A stretch of 64,000 bases of DNA, taken from a bacterium (lineage in GTDB: Bacteria > Desulfobacterota > Binatia > DP-6). The notes beneath the pieces are model-generated. The model worked only from the letters and a program-made list of their open reading frames with translations, did not search any database and was not told the origin of the DNA. The position numbers were made by a program, and so were the translations under genes. Within the stretch, counting starts at the first letter, position 1, and every line of letters begins with the position of its first letter. Positions 47,678 to 63,917 of the stretch are shown here, piece after piece. The stretch lies in NCBI GenBank assembly GCA_026129405.1, contig JAHCID010000001.1, positions 961,237-1,025,236 on the forward strand, given 5' to 3'.

Positions 47678-47805
47678 CGGCGCCTGGCCCACACGCCACG
47701 TCCTCCGCCCACGCATCGCCTCGTCGGTTTTGGGGGTTGTCGCGTCGGGAGGATCCGGCAGGGTCGAAGTCGGTCGGTCCCTTCGGGGGCGGCGAGGAGG
47801 CGGTG

Positions 47806-48399
47806 ATGAATCGTCGAACGGCATTGGCGATCCTCTCGCTCGTGACTGCGGGCTGCAGCATCCCGGTCGGCAGCGCCGGTGATCTGCGGCTGGTCCCGTC
47901 GGTGCGCAGCGACGAGCTCGCCACGACCGGCTTCTCGGCGGGTGGAAGCATCATGGGGCTCGAGCTCGGGTTCTCGATGGGCTCCCGCTGTACGGGACTG
48001 GTCTCGGGCGTGGACGGCGACGCGCGCTGCCTCGGCGTCGGCGTCCAGAAGAAGGACGAGCCCGAGAAGAAGAACGAGCCCGCCGAGCGGCAGCCGCCGG
48101 TGCTGGCCTCCCGCAGTGACGGCCGCGAGTACCTCGCGATGTCGCCGAGGATCGACGCGAAGCAGGACGCGAAGCAGAAGGAGCGCGGGGTCTCGGCGCG
48201 CGTCGATCTCTTCGGCGTCGGTGCGGGCCTGTCGGCGAGCGGAAGTTGCGTCGGCGCGACGACGGCGGTCGACGGCGAAGGCCGCTGCCTCGGCGTCGGG
48301 CTGCGTCCGAAGGACGAGGATACCGCGGCGCCGGCGCCGACGCGCACCGCCCGCAGCAAGCGCGCGCTGACGAACGTCAGTCTTCCGGCGCGCAGGTGA
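47806..48399 (+). CDS. Lipoprotein with an internal duplication
   Basis: 197 residues, signal peptide with lipobox TAGC. Two related segments: 'CTGLVSGVDGDARCLGVGVQ' with 'KKDE', and 'CVGATTAVDGEGRCLGVGLR' with 'PKDE', about 85 residues apart. Each follows a Gly-rich lead ('GLELGFSMGSR', 'GVGAGLSASGS'). A Lys/Glu-rich linker lies between. No family recognised; a surface or periplasmic location is likely. It is the first gene after the Kdo operon (128-base gap) and overlaps the end of the convergent repeat protein by 23 bases. Confidence 0.7.
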   Translation: MNRRTALAILSLVTAGCSIPVGSAGDLRLVPSVRSDELATTGFSAGGSIMGLELGFSMGSRCTGLVSGVDGDARCLGVGVQKKDEPEKKNEPAERQPPVLASRSDGREYLAMSPRIDAKQDAKQKERGVSARVDLFGVGAGLSASGSCVGATTAVDGEGRCLGVGLRPKDEDTAAPAPTRTARSKRALTNVSLPARR

Positions 48400-49520
48400 A
48401 CGTCGGGTGACTCCACACGGACGCGCCGGCGCTCACGCCGCTGCAGGTGGCGCTCACCGACGTGCTGCCGCCGCCGTCGGTGCGAACCGCACCGGGGGCG
48501 CACTGCACGGCGCAGGTGCTCCCGGTCGGCGCCGTGCCGCAGTCGCTGACGACGTGCGCGACGTTCAGCGGCGCGCACGTCGCCGGCACGCAGGTAGTCT
48601 CGCCGATCGCCGTGAAGGCGCCGAAGATGCAGATCGGATCGTTGGCGCCGGACTTGGAGTATCCGGCGGCGCACGCGAGTGCGCATGTCTGGCCGCTCGA
48701 CACGGGCGCGGCACAGCCGGGATACGCACCACCCGTCGGCGGCGGCGGCACGGCGGGGCAGGGATCGGCCTCGCAGGTGAAGGTCGCGTGCGACCAGGCC
48801 GACGCGCCGGTGGCGACGCCGGCGCAGGTCGCCGTCGTCGTGGCACCGCCGCCGCCGTCGCTGCGGTGTGCACCGGGCGCGCATCCCAGCGTGCACTGGC
48901 TGCCGGTCGGGGCCGTCCCGCAGTTGCTGACGACGAGCGGAAGCGTCAGCGGCGCACAGGTCGCCGGCACGCACGTCGTGTCGCCGCCCGCGAAGGCGCC
49001 GGACGTGCAGGCCGGATCGGCCGTGCCGGTCTTCGTGTAGCCGGCGGCGCACGCGAGCGTGCACGTGGTGCCGCTCGGGACGTCCGTCGTGCAGCCGGGG
49101 AACGACCCGCCCGCCGGCGGCGGCGGTGCGGTCGGGCAGGGGTCGGGACCGCACGTGAACGTGGCGAAGCTCCACGTCGACGTGCCCGGCCCGACGCCGG
49201 TGCACGTCGCGGTCGTCGTGTCGCCGGTGCCGCCGTCGGTGCGGTGCGCGCCGGGCGCGCAGCCTACGGTGCACTCGCTGCCCGTCGGTGCCGTGACGCA
49301 GTCGCTGGCGATCGCAGGGAGATCCAGCGGCGCGCAGGTCGCCGGCTCGCACGACGTGTCGGCGCCCGTGAAGCTGCCGTCGAAGCACGCGGGGTCCGTC
49401 ACGCCGAGCTTCGTGTAGCCGTCGGCGCAGACGAGCGTGCAGGTCTCGCCGCTCGGCACGCTCGTCGTGCAGCCGGGATACGACCCGCCCGCGGGCGGCG
49501 GCGCGGCGGGGCAGGCCTGC
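48377..49520 (-). repeat. Three tandem ~375-base repeats inside the sushi-like gene
   Basis: The three protein units above are also recognisable in DNA. Each begins with a segment coding 'GG-Y/F-PGC', recurring with a period of about 375 bases. Divergence between copies is moderate, so the duplication is not very recent, yet copy-number change by recombination is possible. Confidence 0.6.
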
Positions 49521-50095
49521 AGGGCCGCGGGGCAGTCCGGGTCGCCGGTGCCGAGCGTGCACACCAGCTTGCGCTGGCGCCCGTCGGGGCTGACCTTGTG
49601 CCGGCAGCCGGTGAAGCGCGTGCAGAGCCGCGTCTCCTCGCCGTCGTTCACGATCGTCGTCGCGACCAAGACGCTGCCGGTCGGAGCGGCGGCGACGTCG
49701 AGCGGCGTGTCGCCGAGGCTGCCGGCGACGATCTTGAGCAGCGCCCCAGGCTTCAGCAGGCTCGATTTCACCGCGCCGTCCTCGGGCGCGGCCTTGTTCA
49801 CGTACTTGGCGACCCGCGGGCCGTTGAGGATCCAGCCCGCGCCCTGCGGCATGCGGAAGACGCCCTTCGCGCCGTCGTAGGCGACGTCGAGCGTCGCCGC
49901 GATCCGGGCCGGATCGCGGCCCGGACCCTTCGCGACGGCGGCGTCCTTGACGACGAAGACGACCTTCGCCTTGCCGGCGGCGCCCTTGCTCACGACGGTC
50001 AGCTTGCCGCCGGCGATCGGAACGTTCGCTGCACCCGACGTCGCCGCGGAGAGCAGACCTGCGAGGACGGTGAGCAGGGCGACGACGCGAGGCAT
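48377..50095 (-). CDS. Secreted protein with three tandem Cys-rich (sushi-like) units
   Basis: 572 residues from ATG 50095 (GGAG six bases upstream; ATG 50107 possible). After a signal peptide comes a ~165-residue domain ('GKLTVVSKGAAGKAKVVFVV', 'GWILNGPRVAKYVNKAAPED', 'LCTRFTGCRHKV'). Three units of ~125 residues begin near 192, 318 and 443. Each has a CCP/sushi-like half ('PPPAGGSYPGCTT', 'GETCTLVCADGYTK', 'TSCEPATCAPL') and a second Cys half ('GSECTVGCAPGAHRTDGG', 'TATCTG'). Such repeats are rare in bacteria and suggest binding at the cell surface. Ligand unknown. Confidence 0.8.
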   Translation of the reverse strand: MPRVVALLTVLAGLLSAATSGAANVPIAGGKLTVVSKGAAGKAKVVFVVKDAAVAKGPGRDPARIAATLDVAYDGAKGVFRMPQGAGWILNGPRVAKYVNKAAPEDGAVKSSLLKPGALLKIVAGSLGDTPLDVAAAPTGSVLVATTIVNDGEETRLCTRFTGCRHKVSPDGRQRKLVCTLGTGDPDCPAALQACPAAPPPAGGSYPGCTTSVPSGETCTLVCADGYTKLGVTDPACFDGSFTGADTSCEPATCAPLDLPAIASDCVTAPTGSECTVGCAPGAHRTDGGTGDTTTATCTGVGPGTSTWSFATFTCGPDPCPTAPPPPAGGSFPGCTTDVPSGTTCTLACAAGYTKTGTADPACTSGAFAGGDTTCVPATCAPLTLPLVVSNCGTAPTGSQCTLGCAPGAHRSDGGGGATTTATCAGVATGASAWSHATFTCEADPCPAVPPPPTGGAYPGCAAPVSSGQTCALACAAGYSKSGANDPICIFGAFTAIGETTCVPATCAPLNVAHVVSDCGTAPTGSTCAVQCAPGAVRTDGGGSTSVSATCSGVSAGASVWSHPTFTCAPED

Positions 50096-50190
50096 GGGGC
50101 GCTCCATGGCAGATCGCAAAATAGCGACGTCCATGATTGCGGGCGGCACGCGCGGTCTCAACCGGCGCGGCCGCGCATCGCGCCGCGCGC

Positions 50191-51462
50191 TCAGTGACGC
50201 GCCGACATCGCCCCGCGCGACAGCAGTAGCAGGGCGACGAGCGTCAGGACGCTCATCCCGGACAGGTACCAGCCGACCGCCGCGAGCCCGTACGCCTGCG
50301 CGAGCCACGTCGCCGCGTAGGGCGTCAGCGAGGCGCCGACGATGCCCGCGAAGTTGAACGTGAGCGACGCGCCCGTGTAGCGCACCGCGGTGGGGAAGAG
50401 CGCGCCCAGGGCGGCGCCGAGCGGCCCGTAGGTGAGGCCCATGAGGCCGAGGCCGAGCGACAGGCAGAGGAGCACCATGCCGTCGGTGCCGCCGGCCAGC
50501 AGCGGCGCGAAGACGAACCCGAAGAGCGCGAGGCTCGCGGCGGCGGCGATCAGCACCGAGCGCGGATCGAAGCGGTCGGCGAGCCGGGCCGACAGCGGGA
50601 TCGTGAGGCCGAAGCAGACGATGGCCGCGATCTGCAGGAGCAGGAAATGCTGGCGCGAGTAGCCGAGCTCGCTCGTGCCCCACGACAGCGTGAACACCGT
50701 CATCAGGTAGAACACGACGAACGTGGCCACGGCGGCGAACGTGCCGAGGACGAGCCGTGCGCCGTGACGGCGGAACAGCTCGGCGACCGGCACGCGCACG
50801 CGCTCGTGGTTGTGGAGCGCGCGGCGGAACGCCGGCGTCTCTTCGATGTTGAGCCGCACCCACAGCCCGAGGAGGACCAGCGCAGCGCTGGCGACGAACG
50901 GCACCCGCCAGCCCCACGCGAGGAACGCCTCGTCGCTGAGGTAGTGCGTCAGCACGAGGAAGACGCCCGACGAGAAGATGAAGCCGATCGGCGCGCCGAG
51001 CTGCGGGAACATGCCGTACCAGTTCTGCTTGCCGGGCGGCGCGTTCTCGGTAGCCAGCAGGACGGCGCCGCCCCACTCGCCGCCGAGGCCGAAGCCCTGG
51101 CCGAAGCGACACAGCGCGAGCAGCGCCGGCGCGAGCAGGCCCGCGGTCTGGTACGTCGGCAGGAGGCCGATGAGCACGGTCGAGAGGCCCATCGTCAGCA
51201 GCGCGGCCACGAGCGTCGCCTTGCGGCCGATGCGGTCGCCGTAGTGCCCGAAGACCGCCGAGCCGACCGGCCGCGCGAAGAACGCGAGCGCGAACGTGGC
51301 GAGCGACTGGAGCGTGGCCGACGCGGGATCCGTCGCCGGGAAGAACAGGTGCGGGAACACCAGCACCGCCGCCGTGGCGTAGATGTAGAAGTCGAAGAAC
51401 TCGATCGTGGTGCCGATGAGGCTCGCGAACAGCACCCGGCCCGGCGAATTTCCCTGCATCAT
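50191..51462 (-). CDS. MFS transporter of the metabolite:H+ symporter type
   Basis: 423 residues, twelve helices. MHS-family marks: 'SLIGTTIEFFDFYIYATAAV', 'FARPVGSAVFGHYGDRIGRK', 'RFGQGFGLGGEWGGAVLLAT', 'WGWRVPFVASAALVLLGLWV', 'LPTAV'-like 'LFPTAVRYTGASLTFNFAG'. Members include ProP, ShiA and KgtP, importing osmolytes, shikimate or dicarboxylates; the substrate cannot be told. The start (ATG 51462, second ATG at 51459) is immediately preceded by fourteen G residues, which replace a normal ribosome-binding region. Confidence 0.92.
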   Translation of the reverse strand: MMQGNSPGRVLFASLIGTTIEFFDFYIYATAAVLVFPHLFFPATDPASATLQSLATFALAFFARPVGSAVFGHYGDRIGRKATLVAALLTMGLSTVLIGLLPTYQTAGLLAPALLALCRFGQGFGLGGEWGGAVLLATENAPPGKQNWYGMFPQLGAPIGFIFSSGVFLVLTHYLSDEAFLAWGWRVPFVASAALVLLGLWVRLNIEETPAFRRALHNHERVRVPVAELFRRHGARLVLGTFAAVATFVVFYLMTVFTLSWGTSELGYSRQHFLLLQIAAIVCFGLTIPLSARLADRFDPRSVLIAAAASLALFGFVFAPLLAGGTDGMVLLCLSLGLGLMGLTYGPLGAALGALFPTAVRYTGASLTFNFAGIVGASLTPYAATWLAQAYGLAAVGWYLSGMSVLTLVALLLLSRGAMSARH

Positions 51463-51476
51463 CCCCCCCCCCCCCC
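51463..51476 (-). repeat. 14-base poly-G tract abutting the MFS start codon
   Basis: Fourteen C on the plus strand, G on the coding strand, directly touching ATG 51462. Long homopolymers are prone to slippage, and changes in length here would alter ribosome binding or promoter spacing. It is the only run of this length I noticed in the window. A sequencing artefact in run length is possible. Confidence 0.75.
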
Positions 51477-51545
51477 TGCGGCGACCCGTGCTGCCCGCGC
51501 CCGATCACATAGTCGGCCCGGGCGCCGTTCGCACGCGCCGCGCGC

Positions 51546-52469
51546 TCACGGCCCGGTCGCCGGGAAGGGCCCGAGCCGGGCGTCCGCCGCGTCGAACACG
51601 AACAGCTGCGCCGGCATGGCCGGCGCCGGCGGCGGGCCCGTCCGGATGCGCGCGACGATCTCCTCGCCCAGCGCGAACGTGCCGCGGCAGGACAGGATCG
51701 CCTCACCGGCGGGGCTCTCGATGGCGGCGCACGTGAAGAGCGGAGGCGCGACGGAGTTCGTGAGCGCGCGGCCGCCGCCGAGCACGACCTGGAAGCGCTG
51801 GAACGGGCCGCCGCTGCCGTCGCAGCGCACGCGGACGTCGACCTCGCTCGGCGAGGACGTCGCGCCGAAGGTGACGAGGCAGGCGGTGGGCGGGAGCGTG
51901 GTGGTCGTGGTCGATCCCGGCGCCTCGCCCTGCTCGACCTGGCGGACGCCGCGCACGAACGCGTCGATGGCCGCGGCGGCGCCGTCCGCGCAGTCGCGGG
52001 TGATCTTCCCGCGCCGCGCGGCGCGGTAGAGCTTGCGACGGAACAGCCCGATCTGGCGCACGGCGAGGTTCGCGCGCCGCGCCGCGTTCTTCTGCGCCCG
52101 GCAGGCGAGGTCGGCGCGCGCGAGCTTCGCCAGCACCTCGGCCCGGACGGCGTCGACCTCTTCCGGCAGCGTGATCGAGCCGCACCCGAACGACAGCGAG
52201 AGCGCGAGCCCGACGCGGCCGTAGTTGCAGCCGATGGGCCCGATCGGCCGGCTGCACACGCAGCAGCACGTCTCGTCGAGATGGCTGCCGACGACGATCT
52301 TGCACGTCTTCGCGTCGAAGCAGCCGTCGCCCGGCGTGCTGCCGAAGCAGAGGCCGGCCGACAGACAGCCGTCGCGGTCGCCGCAGACGCAGGCGGCGGA
52401 CGCGGGGCCGGCGCCGAGCACGATCAGCAGGGCGAGCGCGGCTCCGGCGAGGCATCGGACGATGGACAT
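51546..52469 (-). CDS. Secreted Cys-rich protein with poly-Thr linker
   Basis: 307 residues with signal peptide ('ALALLIVLGAGPASA'). The mature N-terminus has about fifteen Cys in 75 residues ('ACVCGDRDGCLSAGLCFGS', 'CFDAKTCKIV', 'ETCCCVCSRPIG'). A helical basic region ('ACRAQKNAARRANLAVRQIG') and 'GKITRDCADGAAAAIDAFVR' follow. A 'GSTTTTTLPP' linker leads to a C-terminal beta domain ('VDVRVRCDGSGGPFQRFQVV'). The linker and helical Cys unit are in the style of other secreted proteins of this genome. No function assigned. Confidence 0.75.
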   Translation of the reverse strand: MSIVRCLAGAALALLIVLGAGPASAACVCGDRDGCLSAGLCFGSTPGDGCFDAKTCKIVVGSHLDETCCCVCSRPIGPIGCNYGRVGLALSLSFGCGSITLPEEVDAVRAEVLAKLARADLACRAQKNAARRANLAVRQIGLFRRKLYRAARRGKITRDCADGAAAAIDAFVRGVRQVEQGEAPGSTTTTTLPPTACLVTFGATSSPSEVDVRVRCDGSGGPFQRFQVVLGGGRALTNSVAPPLFTCAAIESPAGEAILSCRGTFALGEEIVARIRTGPPPAPAMPAQLFVFDAADARLGPFPATGP

Positions 52470-52695
52470 GGTCGGGCGCGAGCATCCCGATCCGTCGCGC
52501 ACACGTCCAGCACCGCGGGGCTTCGCAAGTGCCTGAGCATGAGCACGAGCCGCGGCGCCCGCTCTCGTCACGACCAACGCGTTCCCCGGTCGCCCGCGAG
52601 GCGTGTCCATCGTCCGTGTCCCGTGGGACGGCGCGGACGCCGGGGGGCCGTCCCGCCGTGCGCCCTCCCCGGCCGTGTGGTAGAGGCGCAACACC
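52470..52695. other. Divergent intergenic region before the PqqD/HPrK-like cassette
   Basis: 226 bases between the secreted Cys-rich gene and the PqqD-like gene, likely holding promoters for both. GGGACGGC (52625-52632) pairs with GCCGTCCC (52647-52654) around a 14-base loop, 42 bases before the PqqD-like ATG. No sigma-54 or other promoter consensus could be fixed with confidence. Confidence 0.45.
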
Positions 52696-53136
52696 ATGGG
52701 GAGCCGCTACCGGGTGAACGGGCCCAACGTCGTCCACGAGACCGTGGAGCGCGAAGCGATCCTGATCCACCTGGAGTACGGCACCTACTACAGCCTCACC
52801 GAGGCGGGCGCGTGCGTGTGGGACGTGGTGGTCCGCGGCGGCGACGTCGCCGACGCGGTGGCGGCGGTGACCGCGGCGTACGACGTCGCGCCCGAGGACG
52901 CCGCGCCGGTCGTGGCGGCGCTCCTCGATACGCTCGTCGCGGAGGAACTCGTGACCGCCGACGACGTCGCGCCGGCGCTGCCCCTCGCGGTCGCGGGCGT
53001 CGCCGACGGCGCGCGGCGGCCATGGAGCGCGCCCGAGCTGGGACGCTTCACCGACATGCAGGAGCTGCTGCTGGCCGATCCGATCCACGAGGTGGCGGAC
53101 GCGGGTTGGCCGCACGTGAAGCCCGTCGCACGCTGA
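52696..53136 (+). CDS. PqqD-like protein with conserved C-terminal tail
   Basis: 146 residues. Residues 1-95 are a PqqD/RRE winged-helix-type domain ('NVVHETVEREAILIHLEYGT', 'YYSLTEAGACVWDVVV', 'AVAAVTAAYDVAP', 'LLDTLVAEELV'). These domains bind leader peptides in RiPP pathways or act as chaperones of peptide substrates. The last ~40 residues are a separate tail ('FTDMQELLLADPIHEVADAG', then 'WPHVKP'), similar to PqqD proteins that I recall next to HPr-kinase-like genes. It could be a docking or substrate segment. First gene of the cassette, 10 bases from the HPrK-like gene. Confidence 0.82.
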   Translation: MGSRYRVNGPNVVHETVEREAILIHLEYGTYYSLTEAGACVWDVVVRGGDVADAVAAVTAAYDVAPEDAAPVVAALLDTLVAEELVTADDVAPALPLAVAGVADGARRPWSAPELGRFTDMQELLLADPIHEVADAGWPHVKPVAR

Positions 53137-53146
53137 GTCGAGGCGG

Positions 53147-54190
53147 GTGGAAGCGCACGCAGCCGACGATCCGTCCCTGGCCTTCTTCGCCCGGACGCGA
53201 CGGGTCGCGCGTGCGGCCATCGATGCGGCCGGCGCCGTCGAGCGCACGTACGCGATCGCCGGGCATGCGGTCACGGTGCGCGCCGCGGGCGCGGCGTTGG
53301 CGGATCTGCTCGGCGGCGCGCTCGCGCAGCGGCGAAGCGCGCCCGCCGCCGCGCCGGCGCTCGTCGTCGAGTGCTGGGACGGTGCGACGAGCGGCCTCGA
53401 GCCGCCGCCGTTTCCGTGGAGCCTGCCGTCGCATCTCCGGCGCGGCGAGCTGCCCGGCGCCACGAGCGCGCGCATCGGCGCGACGCTGCAACCGCAGGAT
53501 CGCTGTCTCGGGCTCGTCGATCGCGTCGAGCGACGCGCCGTCTGGTGGGCCGCCGCCGCCGCGCTGCCGGTGCACCAGCAGGGCTCGCCGCTGCGCGACC
53601 TGCTGCACGCGTGGCTCGCCGACGCGGGCCTGACGCTCACCCATGCCGCCGCCGTCGGCCGCGGCGGCCGCTGCGTGCTGCTCCCGGGGCGCAGCGGCTC
53701 GGGCAAATCGACGACCGCGCTCGCGGCGCTCGCGGCCGGCTTCGATCTCCTCGGCGACGACTACGTCGTCGTCGACGCGCCCGCGCGGACCGCGCACGCG
53801 CTCTACTCGTTCGGCAAGCTCACGCCCGACGGCCTCGCGCGGCTGCCGGCGCTCGCGCCGGACGTCGTCGTGGCGCCGCGGGGCGACGAGAAGGCCCTCG
53901 TCGACCTGCGCCCGCGGCATGCCGCGCGCCTGCCGCACGCGCTGCCGATCGCCGGCGTCGTCCTGCCGCGCATCACCGGGACGCCGGAGACGCGGGCGCA
54001 GCGCGGCACGGCCGGCGCGGCGCTCGCGGCGCTGGCGCCGAGCACCGTGTTCCAGCTGCCGGGCGGCGGCGGTCGTGAGCTCGCCGCGCTCGCCGGTCTC
54101 GTGCGCACGATGCCGGTCTGGGAGCTGCAGCTCGGAACCACGCTCCCCGGCGTCGCCGCCGCGCTCGACGCGATCCTGGCGGCGACATGA
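53147..54190 (+). CDS. HPr-kinase-like P-loop protein (HprK-related type)
   Basis: 347 residues from GTG 53147. The C-terminal half has the HPrK-like nucleotide core: 'THAAAVGRGGRCVLLPGRSG' with Walker A GRSGSGKST (181-189) and acidic 'LLGDDYVVVD' (Asp204-205). The MEIRGLG signature of true HPr kinase/phosphorylase is absent. The N-terminal ~150 residues are unassigned. Related proteins occur with PqqD-like and nucleotidyltransferase genes, and kinases of this fold phosphorylate some lasso peptides. I infer a kinase acting on a peptide, sugar or protein of this cassette. A bona fide hprK lies at 62.98 kb. Confidence 0.82.
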   Translation: MEAHAADDPSLAFFARTRRVARAAIDAAGAVERTYAIAGHAVTVRAAGAALADLLGGALAQRRSAPAAAPALVVECWDGATSGLEPPPFPWSLPSHLRRGELPGATSARIGATLQPQDRCLGLVDRVERRAVWWAAAAALPVHQQGSPLRDLLHAWLADAGLTLTHAAAVGRGGRCVLLPGRSGSGKSTTALAALAAGFDLLGDDYVVVDAPARTAHALYSFGKLTPDGLARLPALAPDVVVAPRGDEKALVDLRPRHAARLPHALPIAGVVLPRITGTPETRAQRGTAGAALAALAPSTVFQLPGGGGRELAALAGLVRTMPVWELQLGTTLPGVAAALDAILAAT

Positions 54191-54870
54191 CGCGGCCGAC
54201 CGTCGCCGTCGTCATGCCGATCTACAACGGCGGGACGTATCTTGCGGAGGCGCTCGCCAGCCTCCGCGCCCAGACGCTGCTGCCCGACGAGATCGTCGTC
54301 GTCGACGACGGCTCGACCGACGGCTCCGGCGCGCTCGCCGCGGCGCGCGCGCCGCAGGCGCGCCTCGTGCGCCAGGAGAACGCCGGCGTCGCCGCCGCGC
54401 TCGCCCGCGGCGTGCGCGAGACGACGGCCGAGATCGTGACCTTCCTCGAGGCCGACGACGTGTGGCTTCCCGAGAAGCTGGCCCGCGAGGCCGCCCGCTT
54501 CGCGGCAGAGCCCGACGTCGCCTGGACGCTGTGCCACACGCAGATATTCCTCGACGCCGGCTGCGAACGACCCTCCTGGCTGCGCCCGGCGCTGCTCGAC
54601 GGGCCGTCGCTGGTCGCGTTCGTGAGCGCGCTCGCCATACGCCGGACGGTGTTCGCGCGCGTCGGCGACTTCGACGCGACCTACCGCTACGGCCAGGACA
54701 CGGAGTGGATGATGCGCGCGCAGGCGGCCGGCATGCGCCGCGCGATCCTCCCCGAGGTGTCGGTGCGCCGGCGCATCCACGCCAGCAACATGACGGACGT
54801 CCAGCGTCACGCCACCGCCATGCTGCGCGTCGCGCGCGCCGCCGCGCGCCGGCACGCGGGCGCGTCGTGA
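54187..54870 (+). CDS. GT2 family glycosyltransferase (first)
   Basis: 227 residues. GT-A fold: 'VAVVMPIYNGGTYLAEALAS', 'DEIVVVDDGSTDGSGALAAA', metal-binding 'VTFLEADDVWLPEKLAREA', and 'FDATYRYGQDTEWMMRAQAA' with the acceptor-site Asp. No membrane helices, so it acts in the cytosol on a soluble or membrane-presented acceptor. ATGA overlap with the HPrK-like gene argues for a common pathway. Confidence 0.9.
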   Translation: MTRPTVAVVMPIYNGGTYLAEALASLRAQTLLPDEIVVVDDGSTDGSGALAAARAPQARLVRQENAGVAAALARGVRETTAEIVTFLEADDVWLPEKLAREAARFAAEPDVAWTLCHTQIFLDAGCERPSWLRPALLDGPSLVAFVSALAIRRTVFARVGDFDATYRYGQDTEWMMRAQAAGMRRAILPEVSVRRRIHASNMTDVQRHATAMLRVARAAARRHAGAS

Positions 54871-55547
54871 CCCGCGCACCCGGCGCGCGCGTGAGCGTCG
54901 TCGTGCCGGTACGCGACGGCGCCCGTCACCTCGGCGCGGCCCTCGACAGCGTGCTCGCGCAGGGCGATCGCGTCGGCGAGATCGTCGTCGTCGACGACGG
55001 CTCGTCGGACGACTCCGTCGCCGTCGCGCGCTCGCGCGGCCCGCTCGTGCGCGTGATCGCGCAGCCGCCGTCCGGCGTCGGCCCGGCGCGCAACCGGGGC
55101 GCCGCGGCGGCGAGCCATCCGCTGCTCGCCTTCCTCGACGCCGACGATCTCTGGCCCGACGATCGGCTCGCGGGGCTGTGCGCGGTGCTCGAAGCGGCGC
55201 CCGAGCTCGACGCCGTGTTCGGGCTGGTCGAGGAGTTCTTCACCCCCGAGCTCGACGCCGCCGTCGCCGCGACGATGCGCTGCAAGCCCCTCGGCGCGGC
55301 CATGCTGCCCGGAGGCATGCTCATCTGGCGCGACGCCTTCGCGCGCCATGCCGGCTTCGCCGCCCGCGGCGCGGAGTTCGTCGCGTGGTTCGTCGGCGCG
55401 CGCGACGGCGGGCTGCGCTGGCGCGTGCTCGATACGCTCGTGCTGCGCCGTCGCCTGCACGATCGCAACCGCGCCCGCGTCGATCCGCGTGTCGCCGCGG
55501 ACTACCTCCGGATCGCGCGCGAGCGCGTCGCGGGACGACGGCCATGA
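54867..55547 (+). CDS. GT2 family glycosyltransferase (second)
   Basis: 226 residues from GTG 54867 (GTGA overlap). 'VSVVVPVRDGARHLGAALDS', 'GEIVVVDDGSSDDSVAVARS', 'LLAFLDADDLWPDDRLAGLC', then a shorter C-terminal region in which 'GAEFVAWFVGARDGGLRWRV' takes the acceptor-site place. It is related in size and layout to the first GT2 but clearly diverged. The pair with the kinase-like and nucleotidyltransferase-fold genes suggests decoration of one product with two sugars. Confidence 0.88.
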   Translation: MTRAPGARVSVVVPVRDGARHLGAALDSVLAQGDRVGEIVVVDDGSSDDSVAVARSRGPLVRVIAQPPSGVGPARNRGAAAASHPLLAFLDADDLWPDDRLAGLCAVLEAAPELDAVFGLVEEFFTPELDAAVAATMRCKPLGAAMLPGGMLIWRDAFARHAGFAARGAEFVAWFVGARDGGLRWRVLDTLVLRRRLHDRNRARVDPRVAADYLRIARERVAGRRP

Positions 55548-55557
55548 CGGGGTCTCC

Positions 55558-56640
55558 ATGACGTCGTCCTGCTGGCCGACGCCCGATCAGGAGCTGCTGC
55601 TCGGCGCGTGTCTGCGCGGCGGGTCGGACGCGATCTCGGCCTGGCGCCGCTGGCGCCGCCGCGTGGATCTCGACGACGTCGACCCGGCATCGTTTCGGCT
55701 GCTGCCGCTCCTCTACCGGACGCTCGCGAAGCACGGCGTCGCCGACGCGGACCTCGCGCGCCTCGCCGGCGTCTACCGCTGGCACTGGGTACGCACGCAG
55801 CTGCAGGTGCGGGCCGCGGCGCAGGTGCTCGATCGGCTCACCGCCGCCGGCGTGCCGACGCTCGTGCTGAAGGGCGGCGCCGTCGGCCCGCGCTACTACG
55901 GCGATCAGGGCGTGCGTCCGATGGACGACCTCGACGTCCTCGTGCCGCCCGCGCACGCCGCCGCGGCGGTGGCGTTGCTCCGCGGCGACGGCTGGACGGC
56001 GCGCCGGCCCGACGTCGAGCGTCGCTTGCAGTTCCGGCACTCGGCCGATCTCCAGCACGCCGACGGCGGCGCGGTCGATTTGCACTGGCGCGTCTTCAAC
56101 GAGTTCGGCGGGACGCTCGACGAGGACGCGGCGTCGTGGGACGCGGCGGAGCCGCTGCGTCTCGCCGGCCGCGACACGCGCGCCCTCTGCGCGACCGACG
56201 AGCTGCTCCTCGCCTGTGGGCACGGCCTGCGCTGGAGCCCCGTGGCGCCGGTGCGCTGGCTCGCCGACGTCGCCACGATCTGTGCGACGGCGGGACCGCA
56301 GCTCGACGCGGAGCGGCTGCGGCGGATCGCCGGCGCGCGCGGCCTCGTCGCGCCCGTGGCGGAGACCGCGGGCTGGCTGCGTGACGCCCTCGGGCTCGCG
56401 CTGCCGCCGGCGCTCGCGGGCATGATCGGCGCGCCGGCGCGCCGGCGCGACCGTTGGGCGCACCGCGTGCGCATGGCGCCGCATCGTGCGGGCGAGCGGC
56501 TCGCGCCGCACGCTGCTGTTCGCGCGCCGGTGGCGCCGGCGCGCGCGCCGGGCTTCGCGCTGCGCGACTATTCCGCCTTCCTCGCGTGCCAGTGGGAGCT
56601 GCCGGACGCCGCGTGCCGCCGCTGCGCACGGTCGGCAGGC
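55558..56640 (+). CDS. Nucleotidyltransferase-fold protein (NTP_transf_5-like), damaged 3' end
   Basis: From ATG 55558 ('MTSSCWPTPDQELLLGACLR') an intact region of ~300 residues: helices, then the nucleotidyltransferase core 'VPTLVLKGGAVGPRYYGDQG' with 'RPMDDLDVLVPP' (Asp-x-Asp), and 'GAVDLHWRVF'. This family sits beside PqqD-like and HPrK-like genes in RiPP-type and polysaccharide loci. The formal frame stays open to 57093. After ~56,480, however, homology-like segments alternate between frames ('RRTLLFARRWRR', 'ALRDYSAFLACQWELPDA', 'RRVPPLRTVGRPVWSELRG'), so the true end is near 56,640 and several indels are present. Confidence 0.72.
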
Positions 56641-56769
56641 CTGTGTGGAGCGAGCTGCGCGGCCGCACGCCGTGGCGTGGACGATCCGCCTGCGCGCCGA
56701 GCGCGACGAGCTGCGTGCGCCCGCCCGCCGATGCCGCACCGCACGCGGCGGCGGCCGCGTGCCGGGCGT

Positions 56770-57152
56770 CACGCCGGCGTCGGCGTCGCACTTCTTCTGG
56801 ATCGACGCCCTCGTCCGTCTGGCTGCGCGCGAGCGAGGACGTCCGCCTCGCGGGCTGGTGCTCGCGCTGCGACGGTGCGCCGTTTCGCCGGGCTGCGCAC
56901 GCGCACGCGGGACGGCGCCGTGTTCGTCGCGCGGCGCGGCCGCCACCGCCCCACGTCGCCGCGGCGTTCCCGACCTTGCCCGAGGCGGCGTGGGCCGGCT
57001 TCGTGCTCGACGTGCGGCTCGGGCCGGGCGAGCGCCGCATCGAGGTGGAGGTCTGCGGGCGCGACGGCGTCTGGGAGCTGCTCTGCACGGTGACGCCGCA
57101 CGACGCGGCGTCGAGCCCCCCGCCGGCTCGCGAAGCCCGGCCGGCGGGGTGA
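56770..57152 (+). pseudogene. Frameshifted remnant of a beta-domain protein
   Basis: Protein-like segments occur in three frames in colinear order: 'SHFFWIDALVRL' (frame 2), 'RASEDVRLAGWCSR' (frame 3), 'TVRRFAGLRTRTRDGAVFVA' (frame 1) and 'VAAAFPTLPEAAWAGFVLDV' with 'RLGPGERRIEVEVCGRDGVW' (frame 3, to TGA 57150-57152). Joined, they resemble the ~100-residue N-terminal beta-sandwich found ahead of some glycosyltransferases and methyltransferases. The rest of such a protein is missing. Probably the last piece of the cassette. The 240 bases after it hold nothing I can call. Confidence 0.6.
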
Positions 57153-57392
57153 TCGACGTGCAGCCGACGCGGCGCATGCCGCCGCGTCGGGCGCACGAGC
57201 GCGACGCCGCGGCTGCCGGTTCGGCCGTGGGTGCGGGGTGCGAGCAGATTTCCGACTCCCGGGCGGGTCGCGGCGACTGGCCGCTGCGCGCGGACGCGTG
57301 CTAGCGACGGGCGTCGTGCGAGACCCCGGCGACACGGCCCTGCCCGCGCAGCCGAGCATGCGCGTCGCCCCCCCGAAGCGGCGGCGCTCGCT

Positions 57393-58291
57393 GTGGAAAC
57401 GCGTCCGGCGCGCGACCCGCGGCCCGCGCAAACGCCGCTCGCGCGCGCGATCGGCGGCGTCGCGCATAGGGCCGGCGCGCTGCCGCCGAGGTCGGGCTGG
57501 CGCTCGACGCCCGGCCGCGCGGCGCACGGGCTCTCGGCAGCACGCGGCGGCTCGCGCTCGCGCACGTCGCGCTCGCGTTCCCCGCGCTCGACGCCGCCGC
57601 CCGCGCGGCCCTCGTACGCGCGACCTTCGAGCACACCGGGCAGTCGTATGCCGAGCTCGGCCTCGCGCGCCGCCTCGCGGCCGCGCCCGACTACGTGCGC
57701 ATCGACGGCCTCGCCGAGCTCGACGCGCTCCGCGGCGGCGGCCGCGGGGTGCTCGCCATCACCGGGCATTGCGGCAACTGGGAGCTGCTCGCCGCGACGA
57801 TGGCCGCACGCGGCTACCCGCTGTCGGTCGTCGCCCGCAAGGTGAACGACGATCGCTTCGACGCGCTCATCCGCCGCTTCCGCGGCGAGCAGGGCATGGA
57901 GATACTCCTGCGCGACGCGCCGGACTTCCTCCCGCAGGTGCGCGCCGCGCTCGAGCGCAATCGCATCGTCTGCATCCTCATGGATCAGGACAGCCGCGGT
58001 GCCGGCGTCTTCGTGCCGTTCTTCGGGCGGCCGGCGCACACGCCGCCCGGGCCGGCGATCATCGCGCTGCGCACGCGGGTGCCGGTCGTCGGCGCGTTCA
58101 TTCGCCGGCGCGTCGACGGCGGCCACGTCATCACGATCCGACCGATCCCGACGGCCGGCGAGAGCGGGCGTGGGGCGATCGTCGGGCTCACCGCACGCTT
58201 CACGGCGGCGATCGAGGACGCGATCCGGCGCGCGCCGGCGGAGTGGGTGTGGTGGCACGAACGCTGGCGGCGGCAGACCGACGAGGAGTGA
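57393..58291 (+). pseudogene. LpxL/HtrB-type lipid A acyltransferase, frameshifted 5' part
   Basis: The last ~265 residues are clear, in frame 2: 'RRLALAHVALAFPALDAAAR', then 'VLAITGHCGNWELLAATMAA' with the His-x4-Glu acyltransferase motif, 'VCILMDQDSRGAGVFVPFFG' and 'WVWWHERWRR'. ATG 57695 opens only the last 198 residues. The expected N-terminal segment 'TPLARAIGGVAHRAGAL' lies in frame 3 (from GTG 57393), and a basic start ('PPKRRRSLWKRVRRATR', ATG 57358) lies in frame 1. One, probably two, indels are therefore present. Intact, it would transfer a secondary acyl chain to Kdo-lipid A at the inner membrane. Confidence 0.75.
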
Positions 58292-62981: not shown

Positions 62982-63917
62982 ATGGTCACCGTCGCCGGGC
63001 TGCTCGCGGCCGCGGAGGCGGGGATGGACCTCCGGCTCGTCGCCGGCGACCGCGACCTCGGGCGAGCGATCGCGCAGCCGCGGCTCCAGCAGCCGGGCCT
63101 CGCCCTGGCGGGCTACCTGCCGCAGCTGCACCCCGATCGCGTGCAGGTGCTCGGCAACAGCGAGGTCTCCTATCTCGCCACGCTGACGCCCGAGGGCGCG
63201 CGCGCCGCAGTCGCGGCCGTGGCTGCCGCCGGCGTCGCGTGCTTCGTCGTCACGAACGGCACGCTCCCGCCCGCGGCGCTCGTCGAGCCGGCCACGGCAG
63301 CCGGCGTTCCGGTGCTGACGACGACGCTGCGGACGGGCGAGTTCATCCGGCTCGCCGCGGCGTGGCTCGAGGAGCAGCTGGCGCCGGAGACGACGATGCA
63401 CGGCGACCTCGTCGAGGTGCACGGCCTCGGCATCCTGATCTCCGGCCGCAGCGGCATCGGCAAGAGCGAGGCGGCGCTCGATCTCGTCGCCCGCGGCCAT
63501 CGCCTGGTGGCGGACGACGCCGTCCTCGTGCGCCGCATCTCGCCGAGCGTCCTGCGCGGCCGGGCCGCCGAGCTGCTCCGGCATCACATGGAGATCCGCG
63601 GCCTGGGCGTCATCGACGTCGAGGCCCTCTTCGGCACGCTCGCGACGCTCGACGAGCACCGGATCGACCTGGTCGTCGAGCTGAGCGAGTGGGCGCCCGG
63701 CGCGGACCGGCTCGGCCTGGCCCACGACACGATCTCGCTCCTCGAGGTGGCGCTCCCGGTCGTGCGGCTGCCGGTGCAGCCGGCCCGCAGCATCGCGCTG
63801 CTGATCGAGACCGCGGCCCGCAACCAGCTCCTGCGCTGGCGGGGACGGCACAGCGCCGCCGACTTCGCCGCCCGCATCGACGCGCGAGCGGCAGGCGGGG
63901 GCCGGGATCGGACCTGA
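62982..63917 (+). CDS. hprK: HPr kinase/phosphorylase
   Basis: 311 residues. N-terminal domain to ~130, then the kinase core with His140, Walker A GRSGIGKS (155-162), 'GHRLVADDAV' (Asp178-179) and the family signature 'MEIRGLGVIDVEALFG'. It phosphorylates or dephosphorylates a serine on HPr/NPr. In Gram-negative bacteria it accompanies ptsN and is linked to regulation rather than sugar uptake. The signature distinguishes it from the paralogous P-loop protein at 53.1 kb. Confidence 0.95.
   Translation: MVTVAGLLAAAEAGMDLRLVAGDRDLGRAIAQPRLQQPGLALAGYLPQLHPDRVQVLGNSEVSYLATLTPEGARAAVAAVAAAGVACFVVTNGTLPPAALVEPATAAGVPVLTTTLRTGEFIRLAAAWLEEQLAPETTMHGDLVEVHGLGILISGRSGIGKSEAALDLVARGHRLVADDAVLVRRISPSVLRGRAAELLRHHMEIRGLGVIDVEALFGTLATLDEHRIDLVVELSEWAPGADRLGLAHDTISLLEVALPVVRLPVQPARSIALLIETAARNQLLRWRGRHSAADFAARIDARAAGGGRDRT

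Follow-up and report, generated by a model that had tools for sequence, protein, structure and literature searches.

What do the products of a five-gene cassette act upon, if the cassette encodes a peptide-binding domain, a kinase, two glycosyltransferases and a nucleotidyltransferase-fold protein and no separate peptide precursor? The cassette lies in the window analysed here, a stretch of 64,000 nucleotides of contig JAHCID010000001.1 from a bacterium of the class Binatia, and the original prediction, made from its letters, regarded it as a candidate undescribed modification system. Our favoured answer is that the PqqD-domain protein carries the substrate itself, which would make the cassette a self-presenting module for peptide modification, with a flexible linker joining a recognition element (RRE) of the kind that serves ribosomally synthesised and post-translationally modified peptides (RiPPs) to the tail that is its own substrate. 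We give this reading a probability of about 0.45, slightly below even odds; the role of the tail as substrate, the order of steps, the chemistry and the product are what we infer by analogy with characterised systems. Profile matches and reading frames bear out that five genes of the predicted kinds lie on one strand, and the spacings given for them (a 10-base gap, ATGA, GTGA and a second 10-base gap) are correct:

52696..53136, plus strand: PqqD/RRE-domain protein, 146 aa (PF05402, E 1.7e-12), with the RRE fold at residues 5-88, a variable linker at 89-107 and a conserved C-terminal tail at 108-139
53020..53112, plus strand: DNA coding for the tail, PWSAPELGRFTDMQELLLADPIHEVADAGWP (match to tail model A2, E 1.2e-18)
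53147..54190, plus strand: HPr-kinase-like P-loop kinase, 347 aa (PF07475, 7e-5, a weak match), with H166, Walker A at G181-S188 and D204-D205
54187..54870, plus strand: first family 2 glycosyltransferase (GT2, of the GT-A kind), 227 aa (PF00535, 4.2e-28)
54867..55547, plus strand: second GT2 (GT-A) glycosyltransferase, 226 aa (PF00535, 2.7e-23)
55558..57093, plus strand: NTP_transf_5 nucleotidyltransferase-fold protein (PF14907, 5.9e-37; domain at about 55696-56367)

By GC content at third codon positions (GC3), the PqqD gene, the kinase gene and both GT2 genes are coding in the expected frames; the two GT2 proteins are about 35% identical to each other.

The C-terminal tail of the PqqD-domain protein

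After the variable linker, the PqqD-domain proteins end in a tail with the consensus [FYW]xxPxLxxYxDMxxLLLLDPIHxVxxxGWP. Among 22 such proteins from at least three phyla, mean pairwise identity is 45% in the tail, 30% in the RRE and 10% in the linker; among the 16 with DP[IV]H, tail identity is 53%. Six relatives have the variant DPPxPG (DAPMPD in locus L115), and at three loci (L038, L068, L069) there is only the distal part of the tail. The invariant tail residues are Asp (D120 and D128), Pro, Gly and, in the DPIH group, His, and Trp is nearly always kept. By inspection, the start of the tail, [FYW]xxPxL, has the spacing of the lasso-leader motif YxxPxL, which lasso B1 proteins recognise in leaders (Tyr-17, Pro-14, Leu-12; PMC10368454). 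Judged from its sequence, the tail is thus a candidate for the 'missing precursor', a substrate comprising leader and core that is fused in cis. The original prediction had noted no separate precursor, radical SAM enzyme or lasso cyclase, which holds for the five genes; it had overlooked the conserved tail, and a precursor probably seems to be missing because it forms part of the PqqD protein.

In its predicted structure the PqqD domain adopts the RRE fold. An AlphaFold2 (AF2) model from a two-row alignment shows this fold at residues 1-88, with block-mean predicted local distance difference test (pLDDT) values of 73-94, and the best solved matches found with Foldseek are leader-bound lasso RREs, namely TbiB1 with the TbiA leader (5v1v; template-modelling (TM) score 0.84, root-mean-square deviation 1.5) and TfuB1 (TM-score 0.87; both TM values by target length). 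The best sequence match of the RRE is also a lasso B1 protein, TbiB1 (8e-19).

In a self-presenting module, the YxxPxL-like part of the tail would dock in the groove of the RRE, either that of the same chain or, within a dimer, that of the partner chain, and the docked tail would display the DPIHEV...GWP segment. The HPr-kinase-like enzyme would then phosphorylate an acceptor that the displayed tail offers, the nucleotidyltransferase-fold protein would put a sugar on the tail phosphate, as does PsmN, which transfers one or two hexoses onto the phosphate of pseudomycoidin (PMC8498205), and the GT2 enzymes would extend the glycan. Such a module would explain why PqqD, HPr-kinase-like and nucleotidyltransferase genes recur as 'orphan' sets that lack a precursor. 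The tail motif provides a searchable handle for genome mining, and the engineering of peptide kinases and glycosylation enzymes would find a natural template in a substrate that is tethered to the domain recognising it.

Alternatively, a separate small precursor encoded elsewhere might be modified, while the tail competes with, or regulates, the binding of its leader to the RRE. Free-standing RREs do usually serve separate precursors (PMC7470986, PMC12710340). However, the PqqD gene is the sole one of its kind in the source genome (as is the PF14907 gene), and gene spacing and open reading frames (ORFs) of 80 aa and more reveal no short precursor gene between or beside the cassette genes. A free-standing copy of the tail with its leader motif was likewise found in none of 143 genomes of the class or 395 of the phylum, using a model of 35 positions that was built on the DP[IV]H tail and detects the DP[IV]H and DPPxPG kinds alike, a search that precursors of unrelated sequence could escape; all matches lay inside a PqqD gene, with one exception. 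A weak tail-like match in genome G165, located in an SMC-like frame, was judged to be at chance level. We regard a separate precursor as quite unlikely.

Recurrence of the gene set

Searches with the kinase, the PqqD protein and the tail showed that the module recurs at 22 PqqD loci in at least three phyla. Tailed PqqD genes were found within the class and in further families of the phylum (GC content 40-61%), as well as in a metagenome-assembled genome of the Rhodobacteraceae (L038) and on a plasmid of the cyanobacterium Crinalium epipsammum (L039). PqqD similarity alone led to 14 tailed loci (L064-L069, L109-L116). In these the kinase gene adjoins the PqqD gene in every case, a GT2 gene in 12 and a nucleotidyltransferase gene in nine, and several of the gaps fall at contig ends; at 18 tail-less PqqD loci of the class, which served as controls, there were four kinase matches (weak), two GT2 and nine nucleotidyltransferase matches. 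Recurrence of the set at other loci and in other genomes, together with the RRE fold, supports the proposal of a candidate undescribed peptide-modification system.

Several parts of the module also occur as fusions. Kinase and GT2 are encoded by a single gene in two genomes (L064:6524-8311 and L069:156-1952, in the latter with a kinase half recognised by tblastn only), and three GT2s are fused in L109. The two kinase-GT2 fusions, like the kinase beside all 14 tailed loci, speak for the self-presenting module. In L069:2389-4473 a radical-SAM domain forms one protein with the nucleotidyltransferase, and a SPASM-like protein and an ABC transporter come next; radical-SAM/SPASM genes are also found near the cassette in L064, L065 and L066. 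No relative was found on viral contigs.

The Crinalium locus (WP_232229449 to WP_015180013) shares with the cassette the tailed PqqD protein, the nucleotidyltransferase, the HPr kinase and the GT-A enzymes, which are annotated separately; it differs in gene order and in an extra FkbM methyltransferase, and has no described function. The plasmid that carries it is mobilizable and the locus adjoins a group II intron, a setting that may have served its spread. Another PqqD-plus-tail architecture was seen in L036, where a second HPr-kinase-like gene (L036:1935-3229) adjoins a PqqD-domain protein that bears at its C-terminus a hydrophobic stretch of twin-arginine/signal-like kind and a tail containing Cys.

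Kinase chemistry and comparison with known systems

The catalytic His, Walker A and Asp-Asp of the HPr kinase/phosphorylase superfamily are all present in the cassette kinase: the residues needed in BsfK, H148, G163, K169, S170, D186 and D187, correspond by motif to H166, G181, K187, S188, D204 and D205. Among 15 kinases, H166, G184, G186, K187, S188 and D205 are invariant, and D204 is found in at least 90%. The family profile matches the HPr kinase structures 1jb1 and 1ko7 (E about 3e-7); the AF2 model of the kinase, again from a two-row alignment, was unusable (pLDDT 31). Against the HPr kinase model TIGR00679, however, the cassette kinase scores 25 bits (cut-off 240), and the genome's own HprK is encoded separately, at 62982-63917 in the ptsN operon, and contains an MEIRGLG segment that is missing from the cassette kinase. 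All 15 kinases tested match HprK_rel_A and HprK_rel_B (TIGR04352, TIGR04355) weakly; as the window kinase reaches 41.2 bits (1e-10) and 32 bits, respectively, with cut-offs of 200, its assignment to these named families was rejected.

With the lasso K/N tailoring systems (paeninodin kinase, BsfK/BsfB1, PsmK/PsmN) the cassette shares the YxxPxL motif and the clustering of a PqqD-type RRE, an HPr-kinase-like kinase and a nucleotidyltransferase. In those systems, HPrK-like kinases phosphorylate lasso precursors, and the RRE accelerates the kinase, as is known for the PqqD-like BsfB1, which strongly accelerates BsfK (PMC10368454). The cassette differs from them in that the motif is part of the RRE protein, that the GT2s number two or more and that no Ser/Thr acceptor is conserved; it also lacks a separate precursor, B2 protease and cyclase. 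On the self-presenting reading, it would be an undescribed relative of this lasso tailoring machinery. The B1-like RRE scores 42.7 with the lasso PqqD model (cut-off 70). The only genome match to the B2 leader peptidase (PF13471) is weak and falls in a frame of 505 aa at a distance of over 260 kb, and no asparagine-synthetase-like lasso C cyclase was found among the genes of the insert that holds the cassette, the part of the genome searched for it. A lasso-peptide cluster was rejected because precursor, B2 and cyclase are missing near the cassette. A functionless remnant of such a cluster, from which protease and cyclase have been lost, would account for the B1-, K- and N-type genes, which are common to lasso clusters, and for the untidy 3' end of the nucleotidyltransferase gene in the window. 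The recurrence of the same protease- and cyclase-less set in unrelated bacteria, with tail and catalytic residues conserved, largely refutes this explanation, which we consider very improbable.

The mycofactocin and PQQ pathways also use an RRE, mycofactocin in addition a GT2, and have conserved peptide cores. Unlike in these pathways, GT2 and PqqD proteins of the cassette score far below the family cut-offs, and the insert in the window contains no radical SAM maturase. None of the curated models in NCBIfam or PADLOC identifies the set with a score that reaches the cut-off, and Pfam picks out just the PqqD, GT2 and nucleotidyltransferase domains. An anti-phage defence system was rejected, as none of the five proteins matches a PADLOC model. 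A literature search found no description of the gene set or the tail motif, within a scope that excluded most subscription journals and bioRxiv, so that absence is no proof. The parts are thus of known kinds, while their arrangement and the tail appear to be undescribed.

Several observations weigh against a self-presenting module. In the AF2 model the tail is disordered (pLDDT 30-42) and does not dock in the RRE, though the alignment had two rows only. The tail contains no invariant Ser, Thr or Tyr, and the characterised lasso kinases phosphorylate Ser/Thr. Its distal part hardly varies from phylum to phylum, in which it differs from most natural-product cores; this is more to be expected of a docking motif or a cofactor-like core than of a diversifying antibiotic. 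In addition, the cassette in the window encodes neither protease nor exporter, and several relatives adjoin polysaccharide genes. The kinase may use a non-standard acceptor or a semi-conserved Thr/Ser of the tail (as in FTDM), or it may not act on the tail; the missing conserved Ser/Thr makes kinase chemistry a directly testable question. The more specific proposal of a widespread RiPP-like system, in which recognition element and substrate are one polypeptide and the DPIHEV...GWP tail is phosphorylated on His or Asp by the HPr-kinase-family enzyme, capped with a sugar by the nucleotidyltransferase and extended by the GT2s, seems to us unlikely. If true, its product would be a phosphoglycosylated peptide or a peptide-borne cofactor of a new class, whose core is conserved between phyla.

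The tail might instead work as a motif for docking or allosteric control, through which the kinase, the nucleotidyltransferase and the GT2s are recruited, with a separate saccharide or lipid as the true acceptor, so that a surface polysaccharide or lipopolysaccharide (LPS) is decorated. This would agree with a near-invariant tail devoid of a conserved hydroxyl and with the co-variation of tail and kinase (Mantel r of 0.61 for tail versus kinase distance, 0.41 for tail versus its own RRE), which we count in favour of the self-presenting module as well, and also with the insertion of the cassette between LPS genes and with the ABC-2 exporter, GT1, sulfotransferase or sugar-epimerase-like genes that adjoin some relatives. 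Against it stand the YxxPxL match, the lasso-type RRE and the presence of K and N enzymes with known peptide substrates; moreover, the insert in the window has no polymerase, flippase or acceptor-lipid gene, and the relatives are located at many unrelated loci. We rate recruitment by docking as a real contender, albeit less probable than the self-presenting module. The phosphorylated, glycosylated peptide named as product in the original prediction fits the published precedent for kinase and nucleotidyltransferase and is a conceivable outcome; the capsule-like polymer named beside it stands as an alternative.

Genomic setting of the cassette

The cassette is an accessory insert, since kdsD and lpxL are neighbours in same-family genomes and the tailed PqqD gene is missing from all six of the family's other genomes. 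Four same-family genomes have kdsA-kdsD-lpxL-lptC-lptA-lptB-rpoN as a continuous run, with 0 to about 120 bases between kdsD and lpxL; the corresponding interval in the window is 9.7 kb long and contains the cassette, an MFS (major facilitator superfamily) transporter and other genes:

47678..57357, no strand assigned: accessory insert between kdsD and lpxL, holding the cassette and four other genes (boundaries by tblastn)

The position beside LPS genes is weak evidence of a role in LPS. No RNA or tRNA features were found with the cassette.

The 3' end of the cassette had been predicted at 57152, which belongs to a different frame; the stop codon of the nucleotidyltransferase frame is at 57093, and GC3 signal and homology are lost already near 56650 (alignment with 11 relatives of 355-408 aa). 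Downstream, at about 56880-57152, a short coding signal in another frame (...PHVAAAFPTLPEAAWAGFVLDVRLGPGERRIEVEV...), which has no Pfam match and is perhaps a gene remnant, explains the earlier end coordinate.

The lpxL gene at 57358-58291 is split between two frames, with its 5' part at 57358-57432 and the rest at 57533-58291; either the gene is broken or the very GC-rich DNA was misread in sequencing. The insert also codes for two Cys-rich, apparently secreted proteins without Pfam match, at 48377-50107 and 51546-52469 (minus strand), the former of which consists in part of repeated units.

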